Shown: one piece after another, positions 34,755 through 38,324 of the stretch | Layout: every line of letters begins with the position of its first letter | How positions within the stretch are numbered: position 1 is the first letter of the stretch | Assembly: GCA_026785945.1 (NCBI GenBank) | Contig: JAJAZD010000261.1 | Location: 1 to 38,324 of the forward strand | Length of the DNA: 38,324 nucleotides | Direction of reading: 5' to 3' | From: Pseudonocardia sp. | Lineage (GTDB): Bacteria; Actinomycetota; Actinomycetes; Mycobacteriales; Pseudonocardiaceae | Notes under the pieces: generated by a model | What the model was told of the DNA's origin: nothing | The model's input: only the letters and a program-made list of their open reading frames with translations | The model's database searches: none | Position numbers and translations under genes: made by a program

Positions 34755-36611
34755 TCAGCGAGGTGGGACGACGGGCGGCGCGACGGGCGGCGCGGCGACG
34801 GCCGGTGCACCGCCCGAGGGCACGGGCTCGCTCGCCGACGGGGTGGCCGTCCCGGCCTTCGCCGGGACCGCGTCGACCCCGGCCTCCCTGCGCTGTTCCG
34901 GGCTGATCGGCGCGGGCGCCGCCGTCAACGGGTCGAAGCCGCCACCGGTCTTCGGGAAGGCGATGACCTCGCGCAGCGAGTCGGCGCCGGAGAGCAGCAT
35001 GCAGATGCGGTCCCAGCCGAACGCGATCCCACCGTGGGGCGGGGGGCCGTAGGCGAACGCGTCGAGCAGGAAGCCGAACTTCTCGCGCTGCTCCGCCTCG
35101 CCCATGCCCAGCAGCGCGAACACCCGCTCCTGGACGTCGGAGCGGTGGATCCGGATCGACCCGCCACCGATCTCGTTGCCGTTGCAAACGATGTCGTAGG
35201 CGAAGGCGAGTGCCTGGTCGGGGGCCGACTCGAACCGGTCGGTCCAGTCCCCGTTGGGCGAGGTGAACGGGTGGTGCACCGCGGTCCAGCCCTGTTCGTG
35301 GCCCTTGTCGTCGCGGATGCGCTCGAACATCGGCGCGTCGACGACCCACACGAACGACCAGGCCGACTCGTCGACCAGACCGCAGCGGCGGGCGATCTCG
35401 GCGCGGGCGGCGCCCAGCAGCGCTCGCGCGTCGGACGGGTGCCCGGCAGCGAAGAAGATGCAGTCGCCGGGTTCGGCACCGACCGCCTTGGCCAGCCCCG
35501 CGCGTTCGGCGTCGGAGAGGTTCTTGACGACCGGCCCGCGGTCGCCGACCGTGCCGTCGTCGTCGACGAGCACGTAGGCCAGCCCGCGAGCACCGCGCTG
35601 CTTGGCCCACTCCTGCCAGGCGTCGAGCTGCCGGCGCGGCTGCCCGGCGCCGCCCGGCATGACGACCGCACCGACGTAGGGGTTCTGGAACACGCGGAAC
35701 TTCGTGTCCGCGAAGTAGTCGGTGAGGTCGGTGAGCTCGATCGCGAACCGCAGGTCGGGCTTGTCCGACCCGTACCGTGCCATCGCGTCGGCGTAGGTGA
35801 GCCGCGGGATCGGGCGCGGGATGTCGTAGCCGACGAGCGCGGACCACAGCGCGGCGGTGACCGTCTCACCGATCTCGATCACGTCGGCTTGCTCGACGAA
35901 GCTCATCTCGATGTCGAGCTGCGTGAACTCGGGCTGGCGGTCGGCGCGGAAGTCCTCGTCGCGATAGCAGCGGGCGATCTGGTAGTAGCGCTCGGTACCG
36001 GCGACCATGAGCAGCTGCTTGAACAGCTGGGGACTCTGCGGGAGCGCGTACCAGGAGCCGGGGCGCAGGCGGGCGGGCACGAGGAAGTCGCGGGCGCCCT
36101 CCGGGGTCGACCGCGTGAGGGTGGGGGTCTCGACCTCCACGAACTCCCGGTCGTGCAGCACCGTCCGCGCGATCCGGTTGGCCTCGGACCGCAGACGCAG
36201 CGCCGCGGCCGGGCCACTGCGGCGCAGGTCGAGGTAGCGGTGCTTGAGCCGGATCTCCTCACCGATCTCGCTGTGGTCGTCGAGCGGGAAGGGCAGCGGT
36301 GCGGATTCGGAGAGCACGGTGAGCTCGGTGACCGTCACCTCCACCTGGCCGGTGGCGATGTCGGCGTTCTCGTTGCCGTCGGGGCGACCGACGACCTCGC
36401 CGGTGACCTGCACGCAGAACTCGGCCCGGAGGCGATGGGCCCGCTCGGCCATCTCCCCCTCGCGGAACACGATCTGGGCGATACCGGAGGAGTCCCGGAG
36501 ATCGATGAAGATCACACCACCGTGATCACGGCGGCGAGACACCCACCCGGCAAGGGTCACGGACTGTCCGGTGTGTTCGGCACGCAAGGTGCCGGCGGGG
36601 TGGGTGCGCAT
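34755..36611 (-). CDS. aspS: Aspartyl-tRNA synthetase
   Basis: Class IIb synthetase (618 aa) of the bacterial type with the GAD insertion. OB-fold anticodon domain: [36 protein letters not shown]. Motif 2: [33 protein letters not shown] region in the middle, and motif 3: [16 protein letters not shown]. The order [11 protein letters not shown] and [14 protein letters not shown] is canonical. After the usual end (EAGVDAVP) there is an extra Ala/Pro-rich tail of about 40 aa. The ATG at 36611 is preferred to the adjacent GTG at 36614. A -10-like TAACCT 9 bases upstream suggests a leaderless mRNA. Confidence 0.97.
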
Positions 36612-36620
36612 CACTCAGCG

Positions 36621-36695: not shown

Positions 36696-38324
36696 TCACA
36701 GCAGGCTCAGCTGCTCCCCCTCCGGCCGCGAGGGCGGGCTCCCATCCGCGTCCGCGGCCACCGGGCCCACCTGTCCTCGCAGCGTGGTGACGGCGCCGGA
36801 GAGGCCGTGCCGGTGCAGCAGCGGTGCCACCCGGGCGCCGAGCGCCCGCCGGTAGTCGGGGTCCACGTAGGTACTCCGGCGGTAGAGCCGCGAGTAGGGC
36901 TCCAGGAGCCCCGGGTAGTCCCGCGCGAGCCACGCCAGGAACCACTCCCGGGTGCCGGGCCTCAGGTGCAGTGCGAGCACGCTCGCACCCGTGGCGCCGG
37001 CCGCAGCGATCTGCCCCAGGAGCGTGTCGAGGGCGTCGGAGGAGTCGGTCAGCAGCGGCAGCACCGGTGCGAGCATCACGCTGCACGACAGGCCGGCGTC
37101 GGCGATGCGCCGGACCAGGTCGAGCCGCGCCGTCGGTGACGGGGTGCCGGGTTCGAGCCGCGCCTGCAGGCCGCGATCCAGCAGCGCGATCGACACCCCG
37201 AGCCCGACGGGCACGTCGGCCGCCGCCGCGATGATCTCCGGCAGGTCCCTGGCCAGGACCGTGCCCTTGGTCAGCAGTGAGAACGGGGTGCCGGAGCGCG
37301 CAAGCGCGCCGATCACGGCAGGCATCAACCGGTAGCGTCCCTCGGCGCGCTGGTAGGGGTCGGTGTTGGTGCCCATGGCGACCGGTTCCCGGGCCCAGCG
37401 GGCCGACCGCAGCTCGCGTTCGAGGACGCGCGCCACGTTGACCTTCACCACGATCTGGCTGTCGAAGTCCGCCCCCGCGTCGAGGTCGAGATAGGTGTGC
37501 GTGCCCCGGGCGAAGCAGTTGTGGCTGATCACGCCCTCGGCGACGAAGTCCCCCGTACCGGTCGTGATGTCGAACATCGGCAGCTCCACCCCGAGCGGTG
37601 AGACGTCGAGCACACCGAGCCCCGGGCCGCCCTCGACCGGCGCCCCGTCGATACGGCGCAGGCGGGAGACCGCGGGATCGCAGATCTGCAGCAACCGCAG
37701 GACCTCCCCGGCGCCGCCGAGCAACCGGACCGATCGCGCACCGGGACGGCCGGACCCGACCTCGGACCCGATCTCGGACCGGAACCCGAGCCGGCGCAGC
37801 GCACCGGCCGTGCGCCCCACGAGCTCCTCGTCGTCGAGCACCGTCCGCAGCTCCCCGGACTCGCAGACCCCCTGGGCGTCGAGCACCCCGGCGAGGAAGC
37901 CCGCGCACCACTCGTCGCCCGGGTGAGCGGGCCACCGCGCGACATCGGAGACGGGCCCGACTCGCCGCTCGGGCGGGGCGATCCGACCGGGTTCCCACAC
38001 ACCGGCACCCACGGGGACCTGCAGCGTGGGCCGGACCCGGTCGACCTCGGCGAGGAAGTGGTGGGCTCGGCCGAGGGCCTCCAGCTCCAGGCGCTCGGAC
38101 GGGAACGTGGGACCGGCCGCACCGGGACCGCCGCCCTCGCCGCGACCGCCATCGCCGTTGTCACCACCACCGCCGCGGCCGTCGCCGTCGCCGTCGCCGC
38201 GGATCAGCCCACAGAGATAGCCCTGCTGGTAGGCCGGGGTATGACCGTGCCCCGGCCGGCCGAGGCCCACCGGCCGCACGGCGGGCAGCGCGCTCGGCCG
38301 CGGGCCGCCGGGGCCGAGCAGTGA
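36696..38324 (-). CDS. Intein-containing Rv2578c family radical SAM protein (partial)
   Basis: The last 273 codons (36696-37517) are the carboxy part of a radical SAM protein of the Rv2578c type: CFARGTHTYLDLDAGADFDSQIVVKVN, PVAMGTNTDPYQRAEGRYRL, PFSLLTKGTVLARDLPEI and VSIALLDRGLQARLEPGTPSPTARLDLV. The leading Cys should be the third of the CxxxCxxC iron-sulfur motif. Directly before it comes an intein end, GDFVAEGVISHN. The intein frame then continues upstream without a stop to the right edge, so the amino extein and intein start are outside the window. Without splicing the cluster cannot form. The product's substrate is unknown. Gene is minus-strand, 81 bases upstream of aspS. Confidence 0.92.
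   Translation of the reverse strand, partial: SLLGPGGPRPSALPAVRPVGLGRPGHGHTPAYQQGYLCGLIRGDGDGDGRGGGGDNGDGGRGEGGGPGAAGPTFPSERLELEALGRAHHFLAEVDRVRPTLQVPVGAGVWEPGRIAPPERRVGPVSDVARWPAHPGDEWCAGFLAGVLDAQGVCESGELRTVLDDEELVGRTAGALRRLGFRSEIGSEVGSGRPGARSVRLLGGAGEVLRLLQICDPAVSRLRRIDGAPVEGGPGLGVLDVSPLGVELPMFDITTGTGDFVAEGVISHNCFARGTHTYLDLDAGADFDSQIVVKVNVARVLERELRSARWAREPVAMGTNTDPYQRAEGRYRLMPAVIGALARSGTPFSLLTKGTVLARDLPEIIAAAADVPVGLGVSIALLDRGLQARLEPGTPSPTARLDLVRRIADAGLSCSVMLAPVLPLLTDSSDALDTLLGQIAAAGATGASVLALHLRPGTREWFLAWLARDYPGLLEPYSRLYRRSTYVDPDYRRALGARVAPLLHRHGLSGAVTTLRGQVGPVAADADGSPPSRPEGEQLSLL
37518..38324 (-). mobile_element. Intein with LAGLIDADG-type endonuclease domain (partial)
   Basis: At least 269 codons. 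The carboxy splicing block reads MFDITTGTGDFVAEGVISHN (block F then block G), ending in His-Asn immediately before Cys+1 of the extein (Asn at 37518-37520, Cys at 37515-37517). Two LAGLIDADG-like motifs, GYLCGLIRGDG (near 38190-38235) and GFLAGVLDAQG (near 37865-37905), mark a homing endonuclease. A Gly/Asp-rich tract (about 38125-38190) follows the first motif directly, where relatives have ordered sequence, so the endonuclease may be inactive. The amino splicing block with Cys1 is beyond the edge. Confidence 0.88.

Follow-up and report, generated by a model that had tools for sequence, protein, structure and literature searches.

An intein at the cluster-motif codons of an Rv2578c-family radical SAM protein from Pseudonocardia sp. 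and at the homologous site of PA0069-family enzymes

MoaA is a radical SAM enzyme. In the parts consulted of two reviews (PMC10663303, section 3.2; PMC3922620), the intein of P. abyssi MoaA is described as blocked by a disulfide between Cys-3 and Cys1 until conditions become reducing, and its host as an oxygen-labile oxidoreductase. At the Pseudonocardia locus described here, a Cys at -3 and Cys1 likewise flank the splice site (CVY/C1), while the MoaA intein is archaeal and resides in another enzyme family; the likeness is one known from reviews. The original prediction for this DNA had raised a redox- or metal-dependent switch and offered no precedent for it; the redox-trap intein of P. abyssi MoaA is such a reported precedent.

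Other described systems resemble individual parts of the element. The PI-SceI, TliVMA and Mtu RecA inteins have the Hint splicing fold with or without an inserted LAGLIDADG domain and occupy other hosts and sites, PI-SceI being an active nuclease, and I-DmoI is a free-standing enzyme. The intein-containing Rv2578c kind is already known to NCBI, where the family name anticipated by the original prediction proves to be NF038136, 'intein-containing Rv2578c family radical SAM protein'; this model describes the same enzyme and insertion, and its name is silent on the roles of the cysteines, the decay of the nuclease and the relatives in PA0069 proteins. A search that covered part of the literature, judged by titles and abstract openings, brought up no paper about inteins of Rv2578c or PA0069 proteins; nor did the papers listed show the transfer between families, the loss of the nuclease among close relatives or the exchange of Cys1 for Cys+1 set out below. 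Rv2578c-family genes are also targeted by a mobile element of another kind, the Samy phage of Streptomyces, whose serine integrase inserts into them according to the part of PMC12924846 consulted; its attB lies in the same gene family as the intein described here, but at a different position.

The rejoined gene and the insertion site

The window, which is the whole stretch of DNA analysed (38,324 nucleotides), constitutes the entire contig C261 (JAJAZD010000261.1) of a Pseudonocardia sp. genome assembled in 380 contigs. Its last minus-strand ORF (36696-38324) comprises 542 codons and runs off the right contig end within an intein. In an NCBIfam profile search the partial ORF scored 504 bits against NF038136 (E 6.5e-151), hence its assignment is not a matter of chance, and a search of the genome located the remaining part of the family profile (positions 1-177) on contig C359. 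The two contigs share 28 bases at their ends, a 28-mer that in the whole assembly is found at those two contig ends only, and through this overlap the sequence could be extended beyond the contig end, as the original prediction had proposed, into the N-terminal half of the gene. The rejoined precursor is a single frame of 716 codons consisting of an N-extein of 75, an intein of 368 and a C-extein of 273 residues, with the layout NPYRGCSHACVY-[C1LAG…368 aa…SHN]-C+1FARGTHTYL and a spliced product of 348 aa. The corresponding features in the window are the following.

36696..38324, minus strand: intein-containing Rv2578c-family radical SAM protein, partial CDS (C-terminal 542 of 716 codons and stop; remainder on C359)
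36696..37517, minus strand: C-extein (273 codons and stop), radical SAM core past the second cluster cysteine
37515..37517, minus strand: Cys+1 (codon 37517-37515), splicing nucleophile and third CxxxCxxC cysteine of the spliced enzyme; Cys in 120/120 close relatives and 120/120 PA0069-type proteins (each the best 120 of about 8000 scored)
37518..38324, minus strand: intein from residue 100 to its last, 368, with the LAGLIDADG domain and the C-terminal splicing blocks (the first 99 residues are on C359)
37518..37523, minus strand: end of block G, His367-Asn368; both residues in 120/120 close relatives and 120/120 PA0069-type proteins (each the best 120 of about 8000)
37569..37571, minus strand: block F Asp351 (DITTGTGDF); Asp in 119/120 close relatives and 120/120 PA0069-type proteins (each the best 120 of about 8000)
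38297..38324, no strand: contig-end overlap of 28 bases, identical to C359 1-28; the frame continues into the N-terminal half

The rejoined precursor scores 771.6 bits against NF038136, above the cut-off of 700. The spliced 348-aa form matches NF038135 (Rv2578c family) with 503.4 bits (cut-off 430) in a single stretch over residues 1-314. The spliced protein is not a member of the PA0069 family (212.5 bits, cut-off 360), and the Pfam Radical_SAM match of the C-extein (E 1e-4) falls under its cut-off. An alignment to the relative P0004 is colinear across the join of the two contigs save for an expanded linker, the length of which in the rejoined gene depends on the 28-base overlap. Downstream of the radical SAM gene, a gene read by eye as aspartyl-tRNA synthetase-like occupies window positions 34755-36614 on the minus strand, and a similar downstream neighbour is visible in two other loci (L090 and L099).

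The ORF reads ...GVISHN/CFARGTHTYL... at the intein/C-extein junction, and the His-Asn end and the following Cys lie exactly at the nucleotide (37515) from which they had been predicted. The junctions as a whole, NPYRGC-SHA-C-VY / C1LAG ... SHN / C+1FARGTHTYL, place the insertion between Tyr-1 and the codon of the third cysteine (CxxxCx[Y]^C). The two upstream cluster cysteines that had been expected are present on C359 as GCSHACVY (CxxxC), and residue 1 of the intein, anticipated to be Cys or Ser, is Cys. In the spliced sequence the radical SAM motif CxxxCxxC is formed as CSHACVY+C, and the prediction that the +1 nucleophile is itself the third motif cysteine therefore stands. What had escaped notice is that Cys-7, Cys-3 and Cys1 are already spaced as CxxxCxxC in the precursor, and the motif is thus not simply incomplete before splicing. 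In sequence terms, splicing is the exchange of one third cysteine (Cys1) for another (Cys+1), and the interruption of the motif suggests that the host enzyme would need splicing.

Both Cys-3 and Cys1 are Cys in 113/113 close relatives and in 116/116 PA0069-type proteins extending that far, each set being the best 120 of about 8000 scored. Since the chemistry of inteins and the cluster motif fix both residues, their conservation is not in itself evidence for a switch or any other function, and arguing from an invariant Cys1 to a role as ligand was rejected as circular. Residue invariance was read from alignment columns in the 120 + 120 proteins with no motif letters demanded, gaps being read as truncated proteins; parsing of 120 proteins by motif left 11/120 unparsed in one pass and 13/120 in another. 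One locus truncated at a contig end (L071) and four others (L001-L003 and L114) were excluded from the tables, and L118 and L119, which are without a C-extein, stand outside the extein counts.

Splicing blocks and the nuclease domain

The sequence elements of a class 1 intein are found, namely Cys1, the block B His and a C-terminal His-Asn followed by Cys+1, and the element is assigned to the class 1 Cys1/Cys+1 inteins with a LAGLIDADG homing-endonuclease domain. Block B reads SGEH, its His being present in 117/117 close relatives extending that far and in 120/120 PA0069-type proteins (each set the best 120 of about 8000), and blocks F and G in the window read DITTGTGDFVAEGVISHN. The Ser in place of Thr in block B (SxxH) is shared by 156/170 full-length inteins of a wider alignment, which contains 189 distinct inteins, i.e. 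these 170 and 19 mini-inteins of 143-166 aa. When the DNA loci were reread with a looser pattern, Cys1, His-Asn and Cys+1 were found in 94/94 distinct inteins, alongside 20 empty alleles. Splicing presumably proceeds in the normal manner, with an N-S shift at Cys1, transfer to Cys+1 and Asn cyclisation. Block A starts resembling CLAG are common among inteins, and a mimicry of the extein CFAR by the intein CLAG was set aside on this ground.

In profile searches PI-SceI, the Mtu RecA intein, I-DmoI and spore photoproduct lyase gave weak matches, at E values between 6e-5 and 0.01, the best of those to inteins being 6e-5. An AlphaFold model of P0004 has a mean pLDDT of 73 and a pTM of 0.56, with values below 50 around the CxxxC and just past Cys+1. 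The model resembles the TliVMA and PI-SceI inteins as well as spore photoproduct lyase, with TM-scores that are low for the whole model and fair per domain; for the inteins the whole-model score is 0.20, and the agreement is good over the splicing domain only (about 0.6 of small inteins). The LAGLIDADG domain aligns to I-DmoI over both motifs (E 3.4e-7), and in the window its features are as follows.

38190..38222, minus strand: LAGLIDADG motif 1, GYLCGLIRGDG, aligned to the I-DmoI motif; catalytic-position Asp143 kept (38193-38195)
37869..37910, minus strand: LAGLIDADG motif 2, WCAGFLAGVLDAQG; residue 250 (37872-37874), which holds the catalytic position, is Gln, not Asp or Glu
38097..38198, minus strand: Gly/Asp-rich low-complexity expansion (GDGDGDGRGGGG...) right behind motif 1, missing from P0004 in the same alignment

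An active LAGLIDADG nuclease is marked by an acid at the eighth position of both motifs; here Asp143 is kept in the first, but residue 250 in the second is Gln, where I-DmoI has Glu, and this second acid likewise distinguishes the element from PI-SceI. None of the 120 closest relatives (the best of about 8000 scored) has an acid in motif 2, the position being Arg in 65, Cys in 26, Ala in 16 and other residues in 13, and the named organisms in this best-scoring set are Pseudonocardia together with one 'Pseudonocardiales bacterium'. In the PA0069-type proteins the acid is present in 120/120 (Glu in 119 and Asp in one; again the best 120 of about 8000), and 18/170 full-length inteins of the wider alignment retain both members of the Asp plus Asp/Glu pair. 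Judging by the residue in motif 2, cleavage seems to have been lost in Pseudonocardia. One same-genus genome (G169; L157) has a 519-residue intein in which a long low-complexity expansion, rich in Ala, Gly, Ser and Thr, separates the two LAGLIDADG motifs.

Among four Pseudonocardia genes (six pairs), dN/dS rises from 0.19 in the C-extein to 0.28 in the splicing part and 0.53 in the nuclease part, the last of these still being below 1. In Actinokineospora, where the motif pair is intact, the nuclease part has a value of 0.64; relaxed selection on the nuclease is therefore not peculiar to the nuclease-dead lineages, and dN/dS alone cannot tell a dead nuclease from a live one. With the qualification imposed by this control, the values from the four Pseudonocardia suggest that selection maintains splicing and is relaxed on the nuclease. 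The PA0069 values of dN/dS are near saturation.

Distribution within and between two enzyme families

The NF038136 cut-off is exceeded in at least 84/200 genomes of the family and at least 13/396 genomes of the phylum, both counts being lower bounds, as split genes like that of the window score under the cut-off. Among 11 genomes of the same genus, the intein is open in six (that of the window, G122, G139, G155, G169 and G192) and its frame is broken in two, G050 (L122) and G082 (L123), within GC-rich stretches, which may reflect real decay or sequencing error. Of the remaining three, G004 has an empty allele, G181 is without a convincing gene (best E 6.7e-7) and G104 is unassigned. On these data a non-splicing, decaying remnant within a pseudogene appears very improbable for the window. 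The two broken frames and the degenerate nuclease with its low-complexity expansions would fit such a remnant; against it, the window's genome has an uninterrupted frame of 716 codons that retains the splicing residues, and the dN/dS values of the extein (0.19) and of the splicing part (0.28) are low.

An empty allele is also found in the named Pseudonocardia CNS-004 (L068), and P. kunmingensis (L053) has a mini-intein of 149 aa that clusters with an intein from outside Pseudonocardia (support 87), which suggests its independent acquisition. The extein tree, whose 96 rows (57 full, 19 mini and 20 empty) were sampled mainly with an intein-bearing query, requires 12 changes of presence or absence, and the well-supported branches alone force seven for the empty state. 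The scattered empty, mini and broken alleles and these 12 changes indicate that the intein has been repeatedly gained or lost and is dispensable. In 107 close proteins intein and extein distances are correlated (Mantel r 0.42, 0/999 permutations as high), and the moderate size of the correlation implies that descent has not been exclusive and allows for some exchange.

The same intein occurs in a second enzyme family. In seven genomes of the phylum one-piece matches of about 480-500 bits run through the intein, and in an eighth the match is divided between two contigs; in relatives from the same group the matches cover the extein only, at about 200 bits. The exteins of two of these loci, L126 and L129, score 472.4 and 487.3 bits against the PA0069 radical SAM family (cut-off 360) and belong to it, and in the PA0069-type carriers (L126-L132; P0121-P0240) the intein sits at the homologous codon. 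The reuse of the site surmised in the original prediction is thereby borne out and proves extensive, as the inteins read in both Rv2578c-family loci and PA0069-type proteins occupy it. The named PA0069-type carriers among the best 120 of about 8000 belong to Rubrobacter/Rubrobacteraceae, with one 'Actinomycetota bacterium' and one Gemmatimonadota MAG, and the NCBI name found for carriers is 'PA0069 family radical SAM protein', without mention of an intein.

The branches that separate the exteins of the two families are very long (3.18 and 1.92 changes per column), and the inteins are up to 63% identical across families. Intein identity exceeds extein identity in 349/350 PA0069-Rv2578c pairs (median 51% vs 38%), and within the Rv2578c family in only 258/1225 pairs. 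The PA0069 inteins fall into a single clade (99), nested in a supported group (97) that also contains Rv2578c inteins, mostly of other actinobacteria, in trees which are unrooted and made by a quick method and which leave the direction and number of transfers unfixed. Taken together, these numbers argue that the intein has crossed between the PA0069 and Rv2578c enzyme families and are difficult to square with deep vertical descent in both families. Pooling both families puts the insertion site inside each of the three most conserved 14-residue windows (YRGCSHACVYCFAR), with the window centred on it ranking 12/292; in the Rv2578c family alone the site window ranks 19/292 (87 exteins) or 37/292 (18 empty exteins), behind the GTNTDPYQRAEG stretch. 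The junction DNA is a median 69% and up to 88% alike across families, and the flanking coding DNA 55%. Four relatives were found on viral contigs with a PA0069-type query, of which three parsed at the motif are without the intein and the fourth is a C-terminal match only.

Mobile elements of other kinds also enter the Rv2578c-family genes. In Amycolatopsis anabasis (L119/L090) and an Actinophytocola MAG (L118/L099), the intein gene is cut exactly at the intein/C-extein junction, its halves lie on different contigs and a common core, ACAACTG, is present at both ends. On the right side the inserted ends of the two elements agree in 28 of their last 36 bases. The Actinophytocola element contains recombinase pieces in more than one frame, starting about 60 nt inside and located beside the left junction (L124, 2691-4024), with Recombinase and zinc-ribbon domains above and a Resolvase domain below the cut-offs. 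The insertion looks like a serine-integrase element with an attachment site spanning the junction, the recombinase evidence coming from Actinophytocola; the DNA pattern of these junction elements gave no match in the viral contigs searched. The core of the Samy attachment site falls on the codons for TFDTPEF in six genes likely from Streptomyces (L146-L151), with one mismatch and 139 nt upstream of the third-cysteine codon, which places the published target within the gene; a Samy attB at the intein site was rejected on account of this distance. The core was found in one further gene with two mismatches, and among eight other empty genes seven have no match within two mismatches and one has an unrelated match.

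These elements bear on the notion that the intein shields its gene because it interrupts a phage attachment site located in the codons of the cluster motif. Rv2578c-family genes are indeed a known serine-integrase target, as the part of the Samy report consulted states (PMC12924846), and two genomes have the gene interrupted by an element at the intein/C-extein junction, with recombinase domains alongside in one. The Samy core, however, is 139 nt away from the intein site, on its upstream side, in 6/6 likely Streptomyces genes, and the two junction elements use the intein-containing junction itself, hence they are not excluded by the intein; a shielding role is accordingly very improbable.

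Persistence of the intein and its possible consequences

The observations are, with high probability, best accounted for by a once-homing, presumably still splicing parasitic intein that occupies codons conserved across two enzyme families and is nuclease-dead in Pseudonocardia. Homing would have spread the intein into the codons for a motif that both families share, and standard class 1 splicing would excise it and create an ordinary CxxxCxxC enzyme. In the Pseudonocardia lineage the nuclease appears to have decayed and the intein would persist mainly by descent, because its loss needs an exact deletion within the active-site motif. A possible Cys-3/Cys1 redox lock would then be a fortuitous side effect of the site.

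Such a lock might instead be the reason for retaining the intein. A disulfide between Cys-3 and Cys1, or zinc, iron or a nascent cluster bound together with Cys-7, could hold back the first step of splicing as long as the cell is not both reducing and replete with iron. The two cysteines are found in all close and PA0069-type precursors that extend to them (113/113 and 116/116, each from the best 120 of about 8000), and the same disulfide is reported to control the intein of the oxygen-labile P. abyssi MoaA in the parts of the reviews consulted (PMC10663303, PMC3922620). The splicing part is under purifying selection, and a nuclease-dead intein persists among the close relatives (again the best 120 of about 8000). 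Cys1 and Cys-3 are, however, dictated by intein chemistry and the cluster motif, purifying selection on the splicing part is expected regardless, and both empty and broken alleles exist within the genus. A redox or metal switch is thus chemically plausible, but retention of the intein as one is rather unlikely, the odds lying clearly against it. A narrower form, in which the precursor CxxxCxxC (Cys-7, Cys-3 and Cys1) holds a disulfide, zinc or a nascent cluster that gates splicing, and Cys+1 is swapped in once the ligand is free, is a speculative proposal and somewhat less probable still; if true, it would mean that the host enzyme matures only where its own cluster can be built, and this in two enzyme families.

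The locus offers a clean natural test bed for conditional protein splicing: splice site and metal site coincide in the same three cysteines, this holds in two enzyme families, and alleles that have the nuclease motif intact or lost, a mini-intein or no intein at all are available for comparison. It also carries a warning for annotation, as inteins of about 340-350 residues may lie unmentioned in enzymes annotated as 'DNA repair photolyase' or 'PA0069 family'. Finally, the transfer at a homologous codon suggests that a homing intein can widen its range of host genes by way of a common cofactor motif.
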